Source: an uncultured Marinococcus sp. (GTDB lineage Bacteria; Bacillota; Bacilli; Bacillales; Marinococcaceae). Taken from it: a stretch of DNA of 48,924 bases. Each line of letters starts with the position of its first letter. Within the stretch, counting starts at the first letter, position 1. The stretch is taken from the NCBI RefSeq assembly GCF_947493875.1, contig NZ_CANLSU010000012.1, forward strand, positions 1-48,924, in the 5' to 3' direction. Position numbers and translations under genes: made by a program. The notes beneath the pieces were generated by a model. That model was not told the DNA's origin. It searched no databases and was given only the letters and a program-made list of their open reading frames with translations. Positions 1-48,924 of the stretch are shown in pieces.

Positions 1-75
1 GCTAACTTCATTCTACTAGAAAAGGACTTCCTTTTTTCGTGTTCGCTCGTTTACACAAAATATTTTACGCTCTCA
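1..75. repeat. Left copy of terminal inverted repeat, probable IS256-type IS end
   Basis: Bases 1-75 are the exact reverse complement of bases 48849-48923. The inner boundary reads GAGAGCGTAAAATATTTTG on the minus strand, followed by TGTGTAAACGAGCG. This A/T-rich, GTGTAAA-containing end resembles the ends of IS256/mutator-type elements, which is recognition by eye rather than a search result. No transposase is inside the window. The element body would lie to the left of base 1, so the contig probably stops where the assembler met a multicopy IS. Both window ends carry the same IS end, implying two copies in opposite orientation or a repeat-collapsed assembly. Confidence 0.7.
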
Positions 76-27869: not shown

Positions 27870-28085
27870 AAATCATAGTTGGGGAAGATGAGAGTAATTA
27901 TGCGAACGCTCTGCATCGACTCAGGGGCGGTGGAAGGTTGGAAGACAGCGCATGATGAAGCGTACTTTGGTGGAACGATCTGAAAGCAAAAAGGGGCCGT
28001 CGGGTCATGGGCAAGAAGGTTCTTCGGAACAAGTGAAGTAGTACCGCGGGTGATATTTCGTCTCTAATCAGAGGCGGAATTTTTT
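27870..28085 (+). ncRNA. Degenerate arginine T-box leader
   Basis: The T-box layout is retained: a stem I with GATGAA-GCG-TACTT in which the proposed Arg specifier is CGU (27961-27963), the T-box core ACCGCGGG (28043-28050) and a terminator CGTCTCT/AGAGGCG with T-tail (28059-28085). The UGGU that pairs with the tRNA acceptor end in the intact copy is UAGU here (28039-28042), which should abolish recognition of the CCA end. It probably no longer regulates. Confidence 0.8.
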
Positions 28086-28110
28086 ATGCTTTATTTAGAA
28101 AGACAAGCAG

Positions 28111-28229
28111 ATGAGGCAATATAAAAAGCAGTATGCCGAAGCCATTATAATCCACATTCAGCACATGTTGGAGGTGAAGGAGGCCCAGACGTTAATTGAA
28201 AAACCAAAATATGACGGACCGGGAGAACC
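28111..28229 (+). pseudogene. argS 5' fragment
   Basis: The frame reads MRQYKKQYAEAIIIHIQHML and continues EVKEAQTLIEKPKYDGPG, matching the first ~38 residues of the intact ArgS at 43158 (MMEYEKQYAEAILPHIQHVL). Homology stops at the GEP/GDL boundary and no further ArgS sequence follows. The ribosome site is lost. Protein-level changes outnumber what a recent duplication would give, so the copy is old. Confidence 0.88.
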
Positions 28230-40378: not shown

Positions 40379-40645
40379 CTAATAATGATATCGGCAGGCA
40401 ATAATGCTAATTTGCTGTTCATCGACGGTATACACCAATCGATGTTCGATATCGATGCGACGACTGTAAAAACCAGCTAAATTGCCTTTTAATTTCTCTG
40501 GTTTCCCAATGCCATCTAACGCCCCGTCTCGTTCAATGCTTTTAATCAATTGATTAATGCGTTTGAGCGTTTTTTTGTCCTTGGTTTGCCAATACTGATA
40601 ATCCTGAAACGCATTGTGAGTGAATAAGACGTTCAACTTACTCAT
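40379..40645 (-). CDS. yoeB: YoeB-family ribosome-dependent mRNA interferase toxin
   Basis: An 88-residue toxin of the Txe/YoeB family, which cleaves mRNA in the ribosomal A site. GIGKPEKLKGNLAGFYSRRI, EHRLVYTV and the C-terminal CRYHY are diagnostic. Catalytic residues align as Glu50, Arg69 and His87, four positions later than the known Glu46, Arg65 and His83 of E. coli YoeB. The start overlaps the antitoxin stop by eight bases, so the two are translationally coupled. All active residues are intact, so the toxin is likely functional. Confidence 0.95.
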   Translation of the reverse strand: MSKLNVLFTHNAFQDYQYWQTKDKKTLKRINQLIKSIERDGALDGIGKPEKLKGNLAGFYSRRIDIEHRLVYTVDEQQISIIACRYHY

Positions 40646-40886
40646 CGATATCGACGGTCGTGGTTTCTTCCTGGTTCAATTGATTGATGGATTCCGATAG
40701 ATGCTTGGCGTTGCTCGGGTTGTTCAAGAGATAGATGGTTTCAAGGTATTGATTGTATTCGTCTTCTGAGATGAGCACCGCATTTCGTTCTTTGGTTGTG
40801 ATGGTGACGGATTCCTGGTCATCGTTGACTTTATCAATCAATCCCTTAAAGTTCTTTCGCGCATTGGAGTAATTCATGACAGTCAT
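40638..40886 (-). CDS. yefM: YefM-family antitoxin
   Basis: An 82-residue Phd/YefM antitoxin starting at the ATG at 40886 with AAGGAG ten bases upstream. The N-terminal dimer/DNA-binding fold reads TVMNYSNARKNFKGLIDKVN, VTITTKERNAVLISEDEYNQ, and the flexible C-tail that wraps the toxin is LNQLNQEETTTVDIDE-like and acidic. It should repress the operon, more strongly in complex with YoeB. Two TGTACA boxes directly upstream match the known YefM operator design. Confidence 0.95.
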   Translation of the reverse strand: MTVMNYSNARKNFKGLIDKVNDDQESVTITTKERNAVLISEDEYNQYLETIYLLNNPSNAKHLSESINQLNQEETTTVDIDE

Positions 40887-40907
40887 CGTTATCAGCTCCT
40901 TTTTTAT

Positions 40908-40929
40908 ATTGTACAATTAAATGTACAAT
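40908..40929 (-). promoter_or_regulatory. YefM operator with paired TGTACA boxes
   Basis: TGTACA occurs at 40910-40915 and 40922-40927, exactly 12 bases centre to centre, within ATTGTACAATTAAATGTACA. The E. coli yefM-yoeB operator uses the same hexamer with the same spacing. The site lies 24 bases before the antitoxin start. Confidence 0.8.
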
Positions 40930-42899: not shown

Positions 42900-43132
42900 T
42901 AATAAATCATATCCGGGAAAGAAGAGAGTAATGATGCGGCCTGTCTGCAGCGACTCAGGGACGGTGGAAGCCTGGGAGACAGCGCATGATGAAGCGCACT
43001 TCGGAGGAACGGTCTGAAAGCAAGTAGGAACCGTCGGGTCATTTCGTTATCAATGGACAAGAAGGTTCTTCGGAACAATCGGAGTGGTACCGCGGGTCAT
43101 ATCTCGTCTCTAATCAGAGGCGGGATTTTTTT
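42900..43132 (+). ncRNA. Arginine T-box leader of argS
   Basis: A tRNA-sensing leader that allows argS transcription when uncharged tRNA-Arg accumulates. Stem I begins GAAGAGAGTAATG; its 3' side holds GATGAAGCGCACTT with CGC (42995-42997) as the likely Arg specifier. AAGAAGGTTCTTCGGAAC forms the stem III-like hairpin, and the T-box GGAGTGGTACCGCGGG (43081-43096) contains UGGU (43085-43088) that pairs with the tRNA acceptor end. The terminator CGTCTCT/AGAGGCG plus T-run is at 43105-43132. Confidence 0.92.
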
Positions 43133-43157
43133 ATGCCTTATTTAGGAGGAAAAGCAG

Positions 43158-44849
43158 ATGATGGAATATGAAAAGCAGTATGCCGAAGCTATTTTACCGC
43201 ACATTCAGCACGTACTGAAGATGGAGGAAATCCAGGCGTTAATTGAACACCCAAAACGTGACGGACAGGGAGACCTGGCCTTTCCCTGCTTTGTGCTGGC
43301 CAGGCATTTCCGAACCAGCCCGAAGGAAATCGCTGCCTGGCTCGCCGACAGCATCCACAGCCCATTGTTTGAAAAAGTGGTGGCCGATGGACCGTATGTG
43401 AATGGGTTTTTAGACAAAGCAGCCGTCAGCGGGCAGCTTCTTCAGCGTATTCAACAAGAAAAAAGCCATTACGGGACGCAGACATGGGGCGAAGGAAAAA
43501 CGATTACGCTGGATTTTTCGTCACCCAATATCGCAAAGCCGTTTTCCATGGGGCATTTACGGTCAACAGTAATCGGTAACGCTATGGCGAACATTGTAGA
43601 AAAGTGCGGCTACACTCCGGTTAAAATTAACCATGTAGGTGACTGGGGAACCCAGTTCGGAAAATTAATCGTAGCCTATTCACGCTGGGGATCGGAGGAG
43701 CAGGTACAGCGGAATACGATTAAAGAGCTGCTGGACTTGTATGTGCTGTTTCATAAAAAAGCGGAGGACGAGCCGCATCTGGAAGAGGAAGCACGGCAAT
43801 GGTTCCGAAAGTTGGAGCAGGGGGACGAAGAAGCAGCCCGTCTCTGGCGGTGGTTTCGGTACGAATCCCTGCAGGAATTTTCGAAGATTTACGATCAGTT
43901 GGGTATTCAATTTGATACGTATCAGGGCGAAGCCTTTTATAACGATCAGATGGAGGGCGTGGCGCAGCTGATTCAAGAAAAGGGGCTGCTGGAAACATCT
44001 GAAGGAGCAGAGGTTGTCGATTTGAGCGATCATCAGCTGCCACCGTGCCTGATTCGAAAATCCGACGGGGCTACATTGTACGCCACGCGGGATCTGGCTG
44101 CAGCAATTTATCGGCATCAGCAGTACGGGTTTGATCAATCGTACTACATTGTCGGAGACGAGCAGCGTCTGCATTTTCAACAGCTGTTTCTGGTGCTGGA
44201 AAAAATGGGCTACGACTGGGCGAAGGGGATGGTCCATATCCCGTTTGGCTTTATACTGCAAAACGGAAAGAAAATGTCGACGAGAAAAGGAAAAGTGATT
44301 TTACTGGATGAAGTGATTCAGGAGGCTATTGATCTGGCTCAGCGAAGCATTGAGGACAAAAACCCGGAGCTTGGGCAGAAGGAAGAAACCGCTCGTATGG
44401 TCGGTGTAGGGGCGATTATTTTTCATGATTTAAAGCACGAACGGCAAAATAATATCGAATTTCAGCTGGAGGATATGCTGCGGTTTGAAGGAACGACAGG
44501 GCCGTATGTACAGTATACGCATGCGAGAGCCTGTTCGATCTTAAGGAAGGCCGGTTATCACCCGTCGTCGGTGAAGCAGGGGCTAGCGGATGCTCCGAGC
44601 TGGAATGTCATCAAAACGCTGGCAGCTTTTCCGTCGGTTATTGAAAGAAGCTATCACCAAAGTGAACCTTCGGTCATCTCCAAGTATTTGATTCACTTAA
44701 GCCAGAGCTTTAACAAATACTACAGCCAGGTCCGCATACGGACGGAGGACGAGGAACTACCAGCCAGACTGGCCCTGGTACATGCAGTGGCGATTGTTTT
44801 ACAGGAAGGGCTGCGTATTCTTGGTGTTCAGGCACCCGAAGAAATGTAG
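43158..44849 (+). CDS. argS: Arginine--tRNA ligase
   Basis: A 563-residue class I synthetase charging tRNA-Arg. AGGAGG precedes the ATGATG start. The N-terminal Add-1 tRNA-elbow domain is at about 1-110; the HIGH motif is SSPNIAKPFSMGHLRST (129-137 FSMGHLRST); GDWGTQFGKLI and YVNGFLDK are family landmarks; the degenerate KMSKS equivalent is KKMSTRKGK; and the C-terminal anticodon-binding helix bundle ends LGVQAPEEM. It is controlled by the T-box directly upstream. It is the only complete synthetase here; the 28 kb copy is a 5' fragment. Confidence 0.95.
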   Translation: MMEYEKQYAEAILPHIQHVLKMEEIQALIEHPKRDGQGDLAFPCFVLARHFRTSPKEIAAWLADSIHSPLFEKVVADGPYVNGFLDKAAVSGQLLQRIQQEKSHYGTQTWGEGKTITLDFSSPNIAKPFSMGHLRSTVIGNAMANIVEKCGYTPVKINHVGDWGTQFGKLIVAYSRWGSEEQVQRNTIKELLDLYVLFHKKAEDEPHLEEEARQWFRKLEQGDEEAARLWRWFRYESLQEFSKIYDQLGIQFDTYQGEAFYNDQMEGVAQLIQEKGLLETSEGAEVVDLSDHQLPPCLIRKSDGATLYATRDLAAAIYRHQQYGFDQSYYIVGDEQRLHFQQLFLVLEKMGYDWAKGMVHIPFGFILQNGKKMSTRKGKVILLDEVIQEAIDLAQRSIEDKNPELGQKEETARMVGVGAIIFHDLKHERQNNIEFQLEDMLRFEGTTGPYVQYTHARACSILRKAGYHPSSVKQGLADAPSWNVIKTLAAFPSVIERSYHQSEPSVISKYLIHLSQSFNKYYSQVRIRTEDEELPARLALVHAVAIVLQEGLRILGVQAPEEM

Positions 44850-45051
44850 GAGGCATTCAGCTAAGGAATATTCCGTTAAACCACTGGATCGATCAACCGA
44901 CCGGGGGAGGAGTGGAAGAAGGCTAGACGTTTCTTTCTTTTGGCTGCCTCTCCATCAGCAACAAGTATTATTGCCGGGAGATAGTGATTACATTTATCGT
45001 CTGTAATAGTTTTCTCAAGCTTCTATAAGTAAACAAGGAGATGTCACTAAG

Positions 45052-45495
45052 ATGATTCATTGCCGAATGATCAGGAAACGGGACTATATTTCTCTACCGT
45101 TGCTTTTTGACGTATTGGGGTACCCCAGCACGCCAGAGGATATCGTTAATCGCATGGATCACTTAATGCAGCTGCCGCAATACGAAGCAATTGTCGCTGT
45201 GAATGATAAAGAAGAAATTTTCGGGTTTGTTGGCTTGGGGCATATGCATTACTTTGAAAAAACAGGCACATATGGAGCTATTTTAGCTATGGCAGTGAGA
45301 GGAGATAAGCAGCGCCAGGGCATTGGGACAATTTTAATCGAAGCCGCAGAGGCCTGGGCGAACAACCTTGGATGTGATGATGTAGTAGTCTCGAGCGGCA
45401 ATCGAAATGAGCGGAAGGCGGCACATCAGTTTTATCAAAAGCATGGATACCTTCACGAAGGCTCGAGCTTTGTGAAATGTTTGGGTGAGAGCTAG
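45052..45495 (+). CDS. GNAT-family N-acetyltransferase
   Basis: A 147-residue acetyltransferase with AAGGAGATG before the ATG. The acetyl-CoA motif is AMAVRGDKQRQGIGTILIEA (pattern Q/R-x-x-G-x-G), followed by VVVSSGNRNERKAAHQFYQK and HGYLHEGSSFVKCL, which is a typical GNAT C-terminal strand. The acceptor is unknown. It lies 50 bases before the alpha/beta hydrolase and may be cotranscribed with it. Confidence 0.9.
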   Translation: MIHCRMIRKRDYISLPLLFDVLGYPSTPEDIVNRMDHLMQLPQYEAIVAVNDKEEIFGFVGLGHMHYFEKTGTYGAILAMAVRGDKQRQGIGTILIEAAEAWANNLGCDDVVVSSGNRNERKAAHQFYQKHGYLHEGSSFVKCLGES

Positions 45496-45545
45496 AGCAA
45501 AAAATGATGATTCGTCTGGACTTCAGCAAAAAGGAGGAGCTATCG

Positions 45546-46274
45546 ATGCAAGAATACTGGGTCCCTCACGATAATACGGTTTTACACTGCCTGGACAGCT
45601 GTCCGGATAATGGGGAGGCAGCCCCCTTACTTATCAGTCCGGGGTTGTCGGAACCAGCGGAAAGCTATATTGATACGATCCGGGCGTTAGAGCCCAGGCG
45701 GTGTATTGTTTTTGCCCATCGGGGAAGAGGGAAAAGCAGTGCACCGTCGTCAGGGTATACCCTGGAGGACCATGTGGAGGATATCGAGGCAGTTGTGAAA
45801 TTTTTTGACCTTCAGCGCTTTTATCTGATGGGGTATTCGCGCGGCGTGTCCTATGCCCTGGGATATGTGATGCGAAATTCTTCCAGGCTGGAGGGATTAA
45901 TCCTGGCCGAATATCCCGCAGTCCATAAACAAATGGGAGCGGGATGGGCCGACCATTACCTGCAGAGTTCATGGGGAAACCAAAGAGGGAGCGATCTCAT
46001 GGATGAGCAGGTTGTTCGAGGAATCGAACGAGATGCCAGAGAGCGCTCGTTTCGTTCTTCTCTTCATCAGATTTCCTGCCCGGTGCTTGTCCTGCGGGGG
46101 ACAGGAAAAGAATCGCTACTATCCGAAGAAGAGGTAAGAGAATACCAGCAAAAAATGAAAAACGTGCAAGTGGTGGTGTTTAACCAGGCAGGGCACACCT
46201 TAAAAGAAACAGAATTCCATAGGTTTGTCCGTGTACTCAAGACATATTTACACAGCGGGAATAAGGAGAAATAG
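45546..46274 (+). CDS. Alpha/beta hydrolase
   Basis: A 242-residue alpha/beta-fold enzyme starting at the ATG at 45546, after AAAGGAGGAG. The nucleophile elbow is LMGYSRGVSYALG (Ser in GYSRG), an oxyanion-type segment is PLLISPGLSEPAESYID, the acid follows VLVLRGTGKESL, and the catalytic His is in NQAGHTLKE. The esterase, peptidase or lactonase substrate cannot be told. Confidence 0.9.
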   Translation: MQEYWVPHDNTVLHCLDSCPDNGEAAPLLISPGLSEPAESYIDTIRALEPRRCIVFAHRGRGKSSAPSSGYTLEDHVEDIEAVVKFFDLQRFYLMGYSRGVSYALGYVMRNSSRLEGLILAEYPAVHKQMGAGWADHYLQSSWGNQRGSDLMDEQVVRGIERDARERSFRSSLHQISCPVLVLRGTGKESLLSEEEVREYQQKMKNVQVVVFNQAGHTLKETEFHRFVRVLKTYLHSGNKEK

Positions 46275-46338
46275 GAGGAGCTCAATCGATATCAAATTAA
46301 AAATTTGGCTTGAATTATTATGTGGGTTGAAGTATTAT

Positions 46339-46354
46339 TTGATTAACCGATCAA
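46339..46354. promoter_or_regulatory. Operator-like palindrome before the TetR gene
   Basis: TTGATTAACCGATCAA is a palindrome with TTGAT/ATCAA arms, followed by AATAAAAAAC. The same arrangement recurs at 47982-47997 before the unknown membrane protein. It lies 43 bases before the TetR start codon. Confidence 0.7.
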
Positions 46355-46396
46355 AATAAAAAACATACGATCAATATTTATAAAGGTGGTTCGAAA

Positions 46397-46996
46397 ATGA
46401 CCAATAAACACTATCTCATTGCTGATGCACGAAAGGAGCAAATCATAAAAGCTGCCGTAGCAGTGCTGACGGAAACAGGATACATCAATACCAGTCTTGC
46501 CAAAATAGCAAAAAAAGCAAATATCAGCACCGGCTTGATTTCGTATCACTTCTCTGGGAAAGAAGATTTAATGAATAATACGCTGGCTTTTTTGGTAGAG
46601 GAAGAGAAGGCTATGATTAAGGAAAAAGTAGAACAAAAACAAACATATCAGGACCAATTAACGGCTTTTATTGAAGCCAGCTTGGCCTACCAGGTTATTC
46701 ATCGGGATAACACAAAAGCATTACTCGAAATCGTTTTTAATGCCCGCACGCCTGACAATATACCCTACTATCTGGTAGAAACGGATACAGATAATGAGCT
46801 ACACGATTTATTAAAAGTTATTCTCCATGAGGGGCAGCAATCTAATGAATTCGGTGAGTTTGACCCCCAGGTTGTTGCGACAATTATTCGCGGTGGTATA
46901 TCAGGGTCCGTATCCTTGCCTCAGTATGACATTGATCTAAACCTTGAAGATTACAGTGAAAAAATGATCTCGAGCATTTTAAAGATGATTAAGTAA
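46397..46996 (+). CDS. TetR-family transcriptional regulator
   Basis: A 199-residue regulator with AAAGGTGG eight bases before the ATG. The helix-turn-helix is NTSLAKIAKKANISTGLISY, HFSGKEDLMNNTLAFLVEEE, typical of TetR; the C-terminal domain is a helical ligand pocket (QVIHRDNTKALLEIVFNART). A TTGAT...ATCAA palindrome upstream of this gene, and a second upstream of 48043, suggest that it represses itself, the CPBP gene behind it and the membrane protein after that. The CPBP gene starts 23 bases after the stop. Confidence 0.92.
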   Translation: MTNKHYLIADARKEQIIKAAVAVLTETGYINTSLAKIAKKANISTGLISYHFSGKEDLMNNTLAFLVEEEKAMIKEKVEQKQTYQDQLTAFIEASLAYQVIHRDNTKALLEIVFNARTPDNIPYYLVETDTDNELHDLLKVILHEGQQSNEFGEFDPQVVATIIRGGISGSVSLPQYDIDLNLEDYSEKMISSILKMIK

Positions 46997-47019
46997 TCTT
47001 ATGAATAGGAGGAGGTTGG

Positions 47020-47985
47020 ATGATGAAGCATACTAAACAAGGAGTACGAGCTGTACCGGCAGAGGTGCCGTATCATCGTGTGCTGGTGAGCAGTAAACGT
47101 CGGATCTTGCGCGGACTTCTAGCTTTTTTGCTGCTTATCGGCGGGATGTATCTTTTTGTTATAGCGTTCTCGTTGCTTGGTCGTGAAATTGACATTCGCG
47201 TGTTTGGGCGGGTTAATCCAGCGGGAGGGGGCAATGACTACACTCCTGTCTATATGGCAAGCAACTTTCTTGCGATTGCCATGCTTATTCCGTGGAGCAT
47301 GTTTATACAACGATGGCTTTACGGAATGAAAGGGTCTGTCCTTCACTCGGTGCGGTCAATTTTTCGTCCCGATGTCTTTGGACGTGCAGTGCTGCTTATT
47401 CTTCCCATCATGACCGTATGTTTAGTTATTTTTAATTGGTTTGCTCCTTATACGACTACGACATGGAATGTTAATGATCTGCTTGTTATTTTCGCTTTGA
47501 GCGTATTGATTGTCCCCCTTCAAAGTGCGGGCGAGGAGTACGGCTTTCGTGGACTTGTCTTTCAGATTGCTTCCAGCTGGGTTCGCAGTCCTCGTGCATC
47601 GCTAGTTACCGGTATTACTGTCTCCAGCATATTGTTTGCCAGTATTCATCTGTCACCCGATCCATGGTTCAACCTGTATTACATGGTTCTCGGTGTTACT
47701 TTTGCCTTGCTGACCTGGCGTACAGGAGGCTTGGAGTACGCGATTGTGATTCACGCAGCAAATAACGCACTTACCTATGTTTTAGCAACGGTCCTGCGCA
47801 CAGATTTGCTGGCCGATGTCGATCGATCAGCCGGAATGACAGGATCGAAAATCATTCTTCTTCCTTCTATTGTAATTATTTTTATCACGATTGTCGTCTG
47901 TTATCAAACGCGCCGTAAAAGTCCTGAATTGACGCCCGGAAGCCCGTATAAAGAAAATGATCAAATCAGCTCGGCTGAAAATTGA
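47020..47985 (+). CDS. CPBP-family intramembrane metalloprotease
   Basis: A 321-residue polytopic protein with the Abi/CAAX-like (CPBP) motifs intact: motif 1 SAGEEYGFRGL with Glu172, Glu173 and Arg177; motif 2 FASIHL with His210; motif 3 IHAANNAL with His245 and Asn249. GAGGAGG precedes the ATGATG. An unusual N-terminal extension of about 35 residues and two early TM segments stand before the core domain. CPBP proteins process prenylated or signal peptides, or give immunity to bacteriocins. Here it is cotranscribed with a TetR regulator. Confidence 0.9.
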   Translation: MMKHTKQGVRAVPAEVPYHRVLVSSKRRILRGLLAFLLLIGGMYLFVIAFSLLGREIDIRVFGRVNPAGGGNDYTPVYMASNFLAIAMLIPWSMFIQRWLYGMKGSVLHSVRSIFRPDVFGRAVLLILPIMTVCLVIFNWFAPYTTTTWNVNDLLVIFALSVLIVPLQSAGEEYGFRGLVFQIASSWVRSPRASLVTGITVSSILFASIHLSPDPWFNLYYMVLGVTFALLTWRTGGLEYAIVIHAANNALTYVLATVLRTDLLADVDRSAGMTGSKIILLPSIVIIFITIVVCYQTRRKSPELTPGSPYKENDQISSAEN

Positions 47986-47997
47986 TTGGTTAATCAA
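47982..47997. promoter_or_regulatory. Operator-like palindrome before the last gene
   Basis: TTGATTGGTTAATCAA is a palindrome with TTGATT/AATCAA arms followed by AATAAAAAAT, matching TTGATTAACCGATCAA plus AATAAAAAAC at 46339. It overlaps the stop codon region of the CPBP gene and stands 46 bases before the next start. Confidence 0.7.
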
Positions 47998-48042
47998 AAT
48001 AAAAAATGATTTATCAAATTTAAATAGAAAGGAAAATATCTT

Positions 48043-48687
48043 ATGCTTACGTTTAACAATCGTAAAAGACGTCTGAAAAAAGTGACAGAAGGGGATGGGC
48101 ACATACTTAAACCATATCGATTCTGGCATGTTTTTACTCATTCGTTGTTTCATATTCACATCATAAATGATGAAAATGAGAAAACGAATTACGCCTTAAA
48201 ATCTAGATATTTTGCGGAAAATGCCAGTGTTGATTTGTATTATGAGAATAAGCATATTGCCTCTTCCACACTTCCAGCCGCTATTCCCATGGAAAACGGC
48301 ATTTTGGAGGTGAAAAGTGGGGGAAGCGGGATCAATAAAATCAATTATATTACGGATAAAGATGAAATGTTTTTTGTCTATCCAGACAAACGTTCTGTAA
48401 GAGGTTTACGTTTGGGGCTTCATCAGCGCTTTCCGAAAATCAGTTCTTTCATTGCTCTCCTGGCGACTCTTGTCCTATTAGTTTCCATTGTTTTAAGTTT
48501 ATCTCAATTATTGGAACCGATAGCCCAAATTCCGTGGGTGGCTGAAAATTTAGGCACCATTGAATCTCCCATCAAGCTGTCCGTTTGGGCTAATATTGCC
48601 GTCGGCATTGCAGCAGCAATAGCTGCAACAGAGCGAGCTCTTATGCTGCGCAGTCACTGGATAATTGACATGGGGGCGGGTGGTTAA
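48043..48687 (+). CDS. Unknown membrane protein with two C-terminal TM segments
   Basis: A 214-residue protein with AAAGGAAAA before the ATG. Residues 1-120 appear soluble and beta-rich with a basic start (FNNRKRRLKKVTEGDGHILK, SRYFAENASVDLYYENKHIA, NKINYITDKDEMFFVYPDKR). Two hydrophobic segments follow at about 134-156 and 180-199, separated by an amphipathic loop. No family is recognised. The matching palindrome upstream and the position after the CPBP gene link it to the TetR unit. Confidence 0.7.
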   Translation: MLTFNNRKRRLKKVTEGDGHILKPYRFWHVFTHSLFHIHIINDENEKTNYALKSRYFAENASVDLYYENKHIASSTLPAAIPMENGILEVKSGGSGINKINYITDKDEMFFVYPDKRSVRGLRLGLHQRFPKISSFIALLATLVLLVSIVLSLSQLLEPIAQIPWVAENLGTIESPIKLSVWANIAVGIAAAIAATERALMLRSHWIIDMGAGG

Positions 48688-48848
48688 GGAAAGTTCGATT
48701 CAATTGTTTGCCCCATTGTTAGAATCAATGACGTTTTAGGAATTTCATTTCAGACTATCGAGTTAGTAGAGCAAGCTGATAGAAGTATTTCAACATAGCC
48801 ATTAGTATCGGAATTTATTAATTAATGTCTCAATATAATAAGTAGTCT

Positions 48849-48923
48849 TGAGAGCGTAAAATATTTTGTGTAAACGAGCGAACACGAAAAAAGGAAGTCC
48901 TTTTCTAGTAGAATGAAGTTAGC
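48849..48923. repeat. Right copy of terminal inverted repeat, probable IS256-type IS end
   Basis: The exact reverse complement of bases 1-75. GAGAGCG at 48850 marks the probable element boundary, and the sequence runs into the IS toward the window end. The preceding 160 bases (48688-48848) hold no gene. Confidence 0.7.
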
Positions 48924-48924
48924 C

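Follow-up and report, generated by a model that had tools for sequence, protein, structure and literature searches.

A 48,924-nucleotide stretch of DNA from an uncultured Marinococcus sp., called the window here, forms the entire contig C12 (NZ_CANLSU010000012.1) of genome G000. Near its end lie a TetR-family regulator gene (tetR), a gene for a CPBP intramembrane protease and a gene for a 214-residue membrane protein (M214, the name used for both protein and gene), with a 36-bp element before the first gene and again before the last. Our analysis indicates that the TetR protein is probably the autorepressor of a small module exchanged by horizontal transfer, in which M214 is the constant member and variable membrane or envelope proteins are the cargo. 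Binding and repression by TetR at the element are very likely, and action of TetR at the second site is somewhat less so, although still likely. What sequence comparison shows is that the element exists, that it occurs together with tetR and lies at the tetR promoter, that tetR is linked with M214, and that the cargo is exchanged.

Organization of the module

The following features were assigned in the window.

46310-46338, plus strand: putative tetR promoter (-35 TTGAAT, 17-bp spacer, -10 TATTAT), stopping one base short of operator 1
46339-46374, no strand: candidate operator 1, consisting of TTGATTAACCGATCAA, an AATA linker and a half-site ending in ATCAA at 46370-46374
46397-46996, plus strand: tetR, TetR-family regulator of 199 amino acids (Pfam TetR_N, E 3.5e-13)
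47020-47985, plus strand: CPBP / type II CAAX-like (Rce1-like) intramembrane protease of 321 amino acids (Pfam PF02517, E 1.5e-17)
47982-48017, no strand: candidate operator 2, consisting of TTGATTGGTTAATCAA, an AATA linker and a half-site ending in ATCAA at 48013-48017
48043-48687, plus strand: M214, membrane protein of 214 amino acids (26 relatives by search; AlphaFold2 model)

An earlier annotation of this DNA, made from the letters alone (the initial annotation), had described twin palindromes with near-identical downstream spacing around a CPBP gene and a protein with two transmembrane segments, and this layout was confirmed. The palindromes lie at 46339-46354 and 47982-47997, each followed by AATAAAAAA, and begin 58 and 61 bases upstream of the ATG of tetR (46397) and M214 (48043), respectively. 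The CPBP gene is located between these two genes, and two transmembrane helices were predicted in M214 at residues 131-161 and 181-212. Operator 2 overlaps the stop codon of the CPBP gene. The intergenic gaps are short, 23 bp between tetR and CPBP and 57 bp between CPBP and M214. No terminator-like site was found between the module genes; two were found inside CPBP, with 2.4 expected in the region by chance. A search of 44800-48924 against Rfam gave no RNA element at gathering score.

A 36-bp element accompanies tetR

Each palindrome was found to be the front of one 36-bp element, composed of an imperfect palindrome, the AATAAAAAA linker and a further half-site 20 bp downstream. ATCAA occurs at 46350 and again at 46370, and likewise at 47993 and 48013; this second half-site was absent from the initial annotation. 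An ungapped alignment of the sites yielded TTGATTgatCgATCAA, AATA, and then a half ending in TCAA 20 bp beyond the end of the first palindrome. Because TCAA is present at this 20-bp offset in 13 of 14 aligned sites (ATCAA in 9 of 14), AATAAAAAA is regarded as a linker inside one conserved element. The second half-site, two helical turns away from the first, suggests that two dimers bind per element; its left arm is degenerate in most aligned sites, and the two-dimer arrangement is therefore tentative.

Judged from the window by itself, the two sites are barely more alike than expected by chance; it is the relatives that make the case strong. An alignment-based scan for M214 relatives gave 26 loci; an earlier scan of genome contigs with the single protein gave none. 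A close tetR (57-73% identity) is located upstream of M214 in 7 of the 26 loci, and these seven, the window and two loci from the genome survey (L106 and L107) make up the ten tetR-M214 pairs counted below. TetR relatives at 43-51% identity (L108-L114) were kept separate from these counts, and a different TetR (36% identity over 56 residues) about 2 kb from M214 in L030 was excluded.

The element is present at tetR in all ten pairs, and a second element precedes M214 in seven of them. Sites were scored with a 40-column matrix, each locus being held out of its own training. The 14 sites first collected scored 32-53 bits (37.0 for operator 1 and 44.5 for operator 2), and the best of 80 shuffled sequences reached 18.4 bits, with a mean of 4.1. 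With the 14-site matrix, three further sites were found, at 44.5 and 37.2 bits in L106 and 49.7 bits in L107, bringing the total to 17. No element was found in the 19 M214 loci that lack the close tetR or in L013, L017 and L018; the best score was 9.4 bits, inside the shuffled range.

Whole genomes were then scanned, with a capped number of candidates from a loose first pass scored in each. In the window's genome, operator 1 scored 38.0 bits and operator 2 scored 36.3 bits with the whole-genome model, and the next site reached 16.0. By comparison, the simple palindrome TTGAT-N6-ATCAA occurs at nine places in this genome, seven of them away from the module. Across the eight tetR genomes scanned whole, with 150 such candidates scored per genome, 14 strong sites (at least 31.7 bits) were obtained, all at the module locus, and the next best site scored 17.0 bits. 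In the genome of the same species (G061) and in those of L027, L030 and L035, the background did not exceed 18.4 bits; only G061 was searched whole for tetR. The comparison supports an operator role of the sites for this TetR. The initial annotation had proposed that TetR controls all three genes. The part of this proposal that ties the sites to TetR is supported, since they accompany tetR in ten of ten pairs, are missing from the 19 tetR-less loci and are the only strong sites found in the window's genome; that both sites act alike is less certain, given the promoter analysis of the second site below.

A -35/-10 pair with 17-bp spacing was recognized at all ten tetR genes, and the element begins 0-5 bp past the -10 box. 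These putative promoters match 9-12 of 12 consensus positions, and 44 of 2000 random positions reach 9; the tetR promoter of the window, with 9 matches, is the weakest of the ten. As the element abuts the -10 box, it is placed where a repressor of its own promoter would sit.

M214 is the constant partner and the other genes vary

In a survey of 397 genomes of the order, a close tetR (at least 340 bits; next 241) was found in seven, and in all seven M214 lies within about 1.1 kb. M214 itself is present in 18 of the 397 genomes (E ≤ 1e-20); of its 19 copies there, 12 lack a close tetR. A CPBP of the window kind was found in two genomes (E ≤ 1e-60), both times inside the module. Among the ten pairs, CPBP is present in three (the window, L023 and L029) and absent from six, and in L022 a small-multidrug-export-like gene takes its place. 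The Arthrobacter locus L044 has a CPBP-like gene of 34% identity some 5.4 kb away from its M214, which was not counted. Genes for TraB/PrgY/GumN lipoproteins directly follow M214 at five loci.

L021, 6637-7635: TraB/PrgY/GumN lipoprotein gene
L022, 6700-7683: TraB/PrgY/GumN lipoprotein gene
L023, 3655-4638: TraB/PrgY/GumN lipoprotein gene
L024, 6742-7704: TraB/PrgY/GumN lipoprotein gene
L041, 6676-7647: TraB/PrgY/GumN lipoprotein gene

These five of the ten pairs represent five species in four genera, and four of the five genes were scanned against Pfam. L107 carries a TraB/PrgY remnant, and no TraB/PrgY gene was detected in the window's genome at E ≤ 1e-10. In G010, G013, G018 and G023, TraB-like genes were also seen no more than about 8 kb away from M214. 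Because the tetR-M214 pairing is constant while CPBP, TraB/PrgY and the export gene vary, M214 is taken as the constant partner and the rest as cargo. The pairing of CPBP with a dedicated membrane protein, as the initial annotation had it, does not agree with these frequencies (CPBP in 3 of 10 pairs and 2 of 397 genomes, M214 in 18 of 397). The check that it had suggested, whether palindromes and gene set recur together, had a mixed outcome: the tetR-M214 duo recurs with its operators, but the trio is rare (window, L023 and L029).

The 26 rows of the M214 tree are the window and all 26 scan loci but L045, which was omitted for its broken reading frame; L106 and L107 are not on the tree. With eight rows linked to tetR, three label changes were counted, compared with 7.1 in shuffles, and none of 500 shuffles was as low. 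This distribution of tetR linkage is as would be expected after one gain and two losses.

The M214 and CPBP proteins

No family in Pfam or NCBIfam matched M214 at E ≤ 1. An AlphaFold2 model built from 26 sequences (mean predicted local distance difference test score 79, predicted template modelling score 0.64) contains a beta domain (residues 33-111), a short helix and two helices of transmembrane length (131-161 and 181-212) connected by a loop some 20 residues long. By the positive-inside rule, the basic residues present at the N-terminus and ahead of the first transmembrane helix suggest a cytosolic beta domain. A search of PDB and BFVD gave no fold relative at E ≤ 0.001; a PH-like fold, considered because of the order of strands and helices, was for this reason not supported. 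An hhalign comparison aligned the hairpin of M214 with the hairpins of three bPH_10 proteins of the YqeB-like kind (probability 80, E 1.3e-5), but in M214 the soluble beta domain precedes the hairpin instead of following it. The bPH_10 model PF23494 has a gathering score of 27 bits, and M214 stays below it: the window protein gave no match, the best relative reached 19.6 bits, and a weak match below the cut-off was obtained for one of six M214 proteins scanned (E 6e-4). The M214 family, with members in both Bacillota and Actinomycetota, is undescribed, and two remote relatives are on plasmids (Streptomyces and Prescottella records). No account of a TetR-M214 unit was found in the open-access literature searched, in which M214 has no name to search by. 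Copies of M214 with a broken reading frame were observed in L017 (7045-7700) and L045 (5962-6626).

The CPBP protein matches PF02517 with 64.1 bits (cut-off 22.4). Its motifs EEYGFR (172-177), FASIH (206-210) and HAANN (245-249) have invariant key residues in three of three homologues; HxxxN counts with EExxxR and FxxxH among the motifs of CPBP / Rce1-like proteases.

The TetR protein and its lineage

The TetR_N helix-turn-helix domain (PF00440) was detected at 49.5 bits (cut-off 24). The model of the protein is all-helical, and among TetR-family chains its fold is nearest to FadR and QacR. In NCBIfam, the protein did not reach the cut-off of any of the 25 models listed among 27 matched, including BetI (TIGR03384, 81.2 bits against an equivalog cut-off of 201.3) and Bacillus FadR (NF053878, 55.4 bits against 200). 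QacR of Staphylococcus aureus, the regulator of qacA, shares the TetR fold (template modelling score of the model about 0.7, about 21% identity in the fold match) and has a long operator of 28 bp that is read by two dimers; QacR and related proteins read 22-32 bp (PMC4150764; here and below, PMC numbers refer to excerpts of the papers). Unlike QacR, which controls a drug pump, the module TetR would have a two-transmembrane protein, a protease or a lipoprotein as targets, and its element is 36 bp long, has an asymmetric second half and is located at the promoter of tetR itself. FadR of Bacillus subtilis gave the best fold match, and FadR and BetI were among the best NCBIfam scores. They differ from the module TetR in that these scores are far below the cut-offs, no fatty-acid or choline gene was recognized in the module, and strong sites turned up at just one locus per genome.

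TetR proteins at 43-51% identity were found in 7 of the 397 genomes (L108-L114). Three of the seven (L111, L112 and L114) adjoin bPH_10/YqeB-like membrane proteins, three (L108, L109 and L110) follow an open reading frame (ORF) of about 150 amino acids that by reading resembles a small membrane protein, and L113 follows an ORF of about 360 amino acids. At these distant TetRs, the composite element scored 29-39 in L108, L109, L111 and L113 and 17-21, near the shuffled maximum, in the other three. From these neighbors, the TetR lineage seems to regulate membrane proteins. The bPH_10/YqeB-like proteins of L111, L112 and L114 also match Pfam CysS_C (cysteinyl-tRNA ligase anticodon binding domain) in their C-terminal part, which is odd for a membrane protein. 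Genes resembling macrolide 2'-phosphotransferases, for which the best NCBIfam model was MphL or MphB below cut-off, occur in the vicinity of either M214 or a related TetR paired with a YqeB-like protein.

L014, 5935-6831: macrolide 2'-phosphotransferase-like gene
L017, 10398-11228: macrolide 2'-phosphotransferase-like gene
L112, 2641-3546, minus strand: macrolide 2'-phosphotransferase-like gene

Mobility and genomic context

Two features of the window bear on the mobility of the module.

44848-48924, no strand: stretch after argS with the GNAT gene, the alpha/beta hydrolase gene and the tetR module, missing from the same-species genome G061
48850-48924, no strand: 75-bp repeat at the contig end; further copies are at window positions 1-75 (inverted), the end of C8, the beginning of C3 and of C11, and other places

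When 43000-48924 was compared with G061 by BLAST, 43000-44847 (up to the end of argS) aligned at 92%, and otherwise only a 38-bp piece near the window end was found; no close tetR, M214 or CPBP was detected in G061. Copies of the 75-bp repeat also occur in G001 and G003. An ORF beside another copy of the repeat suggested an IS30-like transposase, but Pfam gave no match for this ORF, and an insertion-sequence nature of the repeat is therefore only tentative. In the M214 tree, Paenibacillus, Shouchella, Jeotgalibacillus and the window are intermixed. The absence of the module from G061, the repeat at the contig end and the mixed M214 tree together point to horizontal transfer, and by these comparisons the module looks mobile.

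Discussion

In the proposed mechanism, ligand-free TetR, probably in the form of two adjacent dimers, would occupy the 36-bp element 0-5 bp past the tetR -10 box and thereby keep tetR and the downstream genes from being transcribed. At the second copy, TetR would control M214 independently, either by closing an internal promoter or by stopping readthrough. A ligand, most plausibly a membrane-active or lipophilic compound, would free TetR, and the released M214 and its partners would protect or remodel the membrane. The ligand class and the protective role are put forward tentatively. In favor of a protective role are the types of cargo, the distant TetRs adjoining bPH_10/YqeB-like proteins (three of seven) and the parallel to YdbST of Bacillus subtilis. 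The YdbST membrane proteins protect against amylocyclicin (PMC8144471), and PH-domain proteins related to them occur in bacteriocin clusters (PMC10311245). The parallel is one of function only, namely membrane proteins in envelope defense, and YdbST is controlled by SigW, not by a TetR. CAAX proteases have roles in immunity, processing and signaling (PMC9298176). From the FadR/QacR-like TetR model, YdbST and these protease roles, we tentatively infer an inducible membrane-protection module. A further idea, which we consider speculative and rather unlikely, is a mobile, inducible envelope-defense cassette. In such a cassette, a TetR lineage with a 36-bp two-dimer operator would take different two-transmembrane proteins as constant partner (M214, and YqeB-like proteins in relatives) and exchange proteolytic or export cargo (CPBP, TraB/PrgY, small export protein), and the promoterless internal second operator would be a roadblock inside one transcript, separating expression of the membrane protein from that of the cargo before it.

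With this analysis, the M214 family gains a regulator, a precise candidate operator and recurring partners, and its function becomes approachable through what TetR senses. It is also an example of a similarity that is near noise within one sequence and turns clear across ten loci. The conservation of a second operator without a recognizable promoter is an unusual arrangement.

Several observations weigh against the proposed autorepressor module. At the level of the window, only 5 matches to the element at up to 3 mismatches were counted, with 3.8 expected. The two 27-mers are identical at 20 of 27 positions, and the best match in eight shuffles was 17-18. The palindromes are imperfect, with 5 of 8 and 6 of 8 arm positions pairing by reading, and 35 other 16-mers of the window are better palindromes, pairing at 7 or 8 of 8. 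A general promoter scan of the window region gave 9 promoter-like sites, not above the 7.2 expected by chance, and neither an efflux pump nor a known resistance gene was recognized in the window module itself. Weak partial matches were obtained among 61 genomes, the best with 22.5 bits (28 of 44 columns) in G018, where no close tetR was found, and another with 20.3 bits in G051, a genome not searched for tetR by name; both fall below the 31.7-45.6 bits of the real loci. M214 is without this tetR at 19 of 26 loci and therefore can work without the switch. The identities of tetR and M214 correlate incompletely (r 0.45; 43 of 5000 permutations reached this value), which makes an exchange of parts probable; tetR is 90% identical among Peribacillus, Metabacillus and Salibacterium, and M214 there is 56-70% identical. 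Finally, three of the ten pairs (L021, L107 and L029) have no second site, and where a second site exists, a clear promoter at the usual position was found only in L022 (11 of 12 consensus positions). The other six second sites score 5-8 of 12 (5 for that of the window), and 235 of 2000 random positions reach 8. As six of seven loci have no recognizable promoter at the second site, its action there is unexplained.

The close spacing of the genes and the lack of an intergenic terminator-like site in the window indicate that the second site may act on readthrough; it may also act on an unrecognized promoter or be a relic. The best surviving alternative takes the last option. In this view, the operator at tetR is the only working one, its counterpart ahead of M214 is the relic of a duplication of operator and tetR, and CPBP and M214 ride on the tetR transcript. 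In L023, a decayed fragment of a second tetR (2641-2730, E 1.4e-7; 43 nucleotides match the intact copy with 88% identity) was found in the gap that separates the second operator from M214. On the evidence of this single locus, the operator-tetR unit may have been duplicated in tandem and one tetR then lost, which would explain the twin operators; the equivalent gaps of L022, L024, L029 and L041 gave no tetR fragment. The missing promoters at six of seven second sites and the terminator-free 23- and 57-bp gaps of the window also fit a relic. However, the second copies score like the first (37-45 and 32-53 bits, respectively) across diverged loci, which argues for selection, and L022 retains its promoter match at the second site. 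We consider a relic unlikely.

Slightly less probable is a metabolic regulator of the FadR or BetI type, with an acyl-CoA or osmolyte as ligand, in a module that tunes membrane lipids or osmotic state instead of giving resistance to toxic compounds. Several of the carrier genera are salt- or alkali-tolerant, as such a role would have it. FadR and QacR are nearest by fold, the top NCBIfam matches include BetI with 81 bits and FadR with 55 bits, and the betI box ATTGACG-CGTCAAT (PMC12442346) has the same TTGA/TCAA arms. Against a metabolic role, the BetI and FadR matches stay far under their cut-offs of 201 and 200 bits, and no choline, betaine or fatty-acid gene was recognized in the module, the outer genes having been read by eye only.

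The initial annotation had suggested that CPBP and M214 could be a processing or immunity module, which would make them a dedicated pair for processing of, or immunity to, a bacteriocin. Both membrane proteins are present in one unit in three genomes, some CAAX proteases confer bacteriocin immunity (PMC9298176), and the CPBP of the window has the EExxxR and FxxxH motifs of the CPBP / type II CAAX-like proteases of bacteriocin loci. In contrast to these, it is an optional member of a TetR unit, absent from seven of ten tetR-M214 pairs, and no bacteriocin-like gene was recognized beside it by eye among ORFs of at least 60-80 amino acids, short precursors not having been searched for; we regard such a pair as improbable. 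That the palindromes are chance inverted repeats unrelated to TetR, as the loose-match count and arm pairing within the window would allow, is highly unlikely with 17 conserved 36-bp elements at ten homologous loci and none at 19 tetR-less loci.

Other observations in the window

The GNAT and alpha/beta hydrolase genes upstream of tetR (45052-46274) have a second copy in the same genome at G000:C3:494461-495832, 73-74% identical over the matched parts. Window positions 27910-28226 are about 80% similar to the start of argS and the preceding DNA (about 42944-43274). A YoeB-type toxin gene was recognized elsewhere in the window, and an ORF of 92 amino acids upstream of it is a putative antitoxin gene by position.

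40379-40916, minus strand: YoeB-type toxin gene (PF06769, E 7.6e-26 over 69 of 88 residues) together with the upstream 92-residue ORF

Inside the toxin gene, at 40542, lies the perfect palindrome TTAATCAATTGATTAA.

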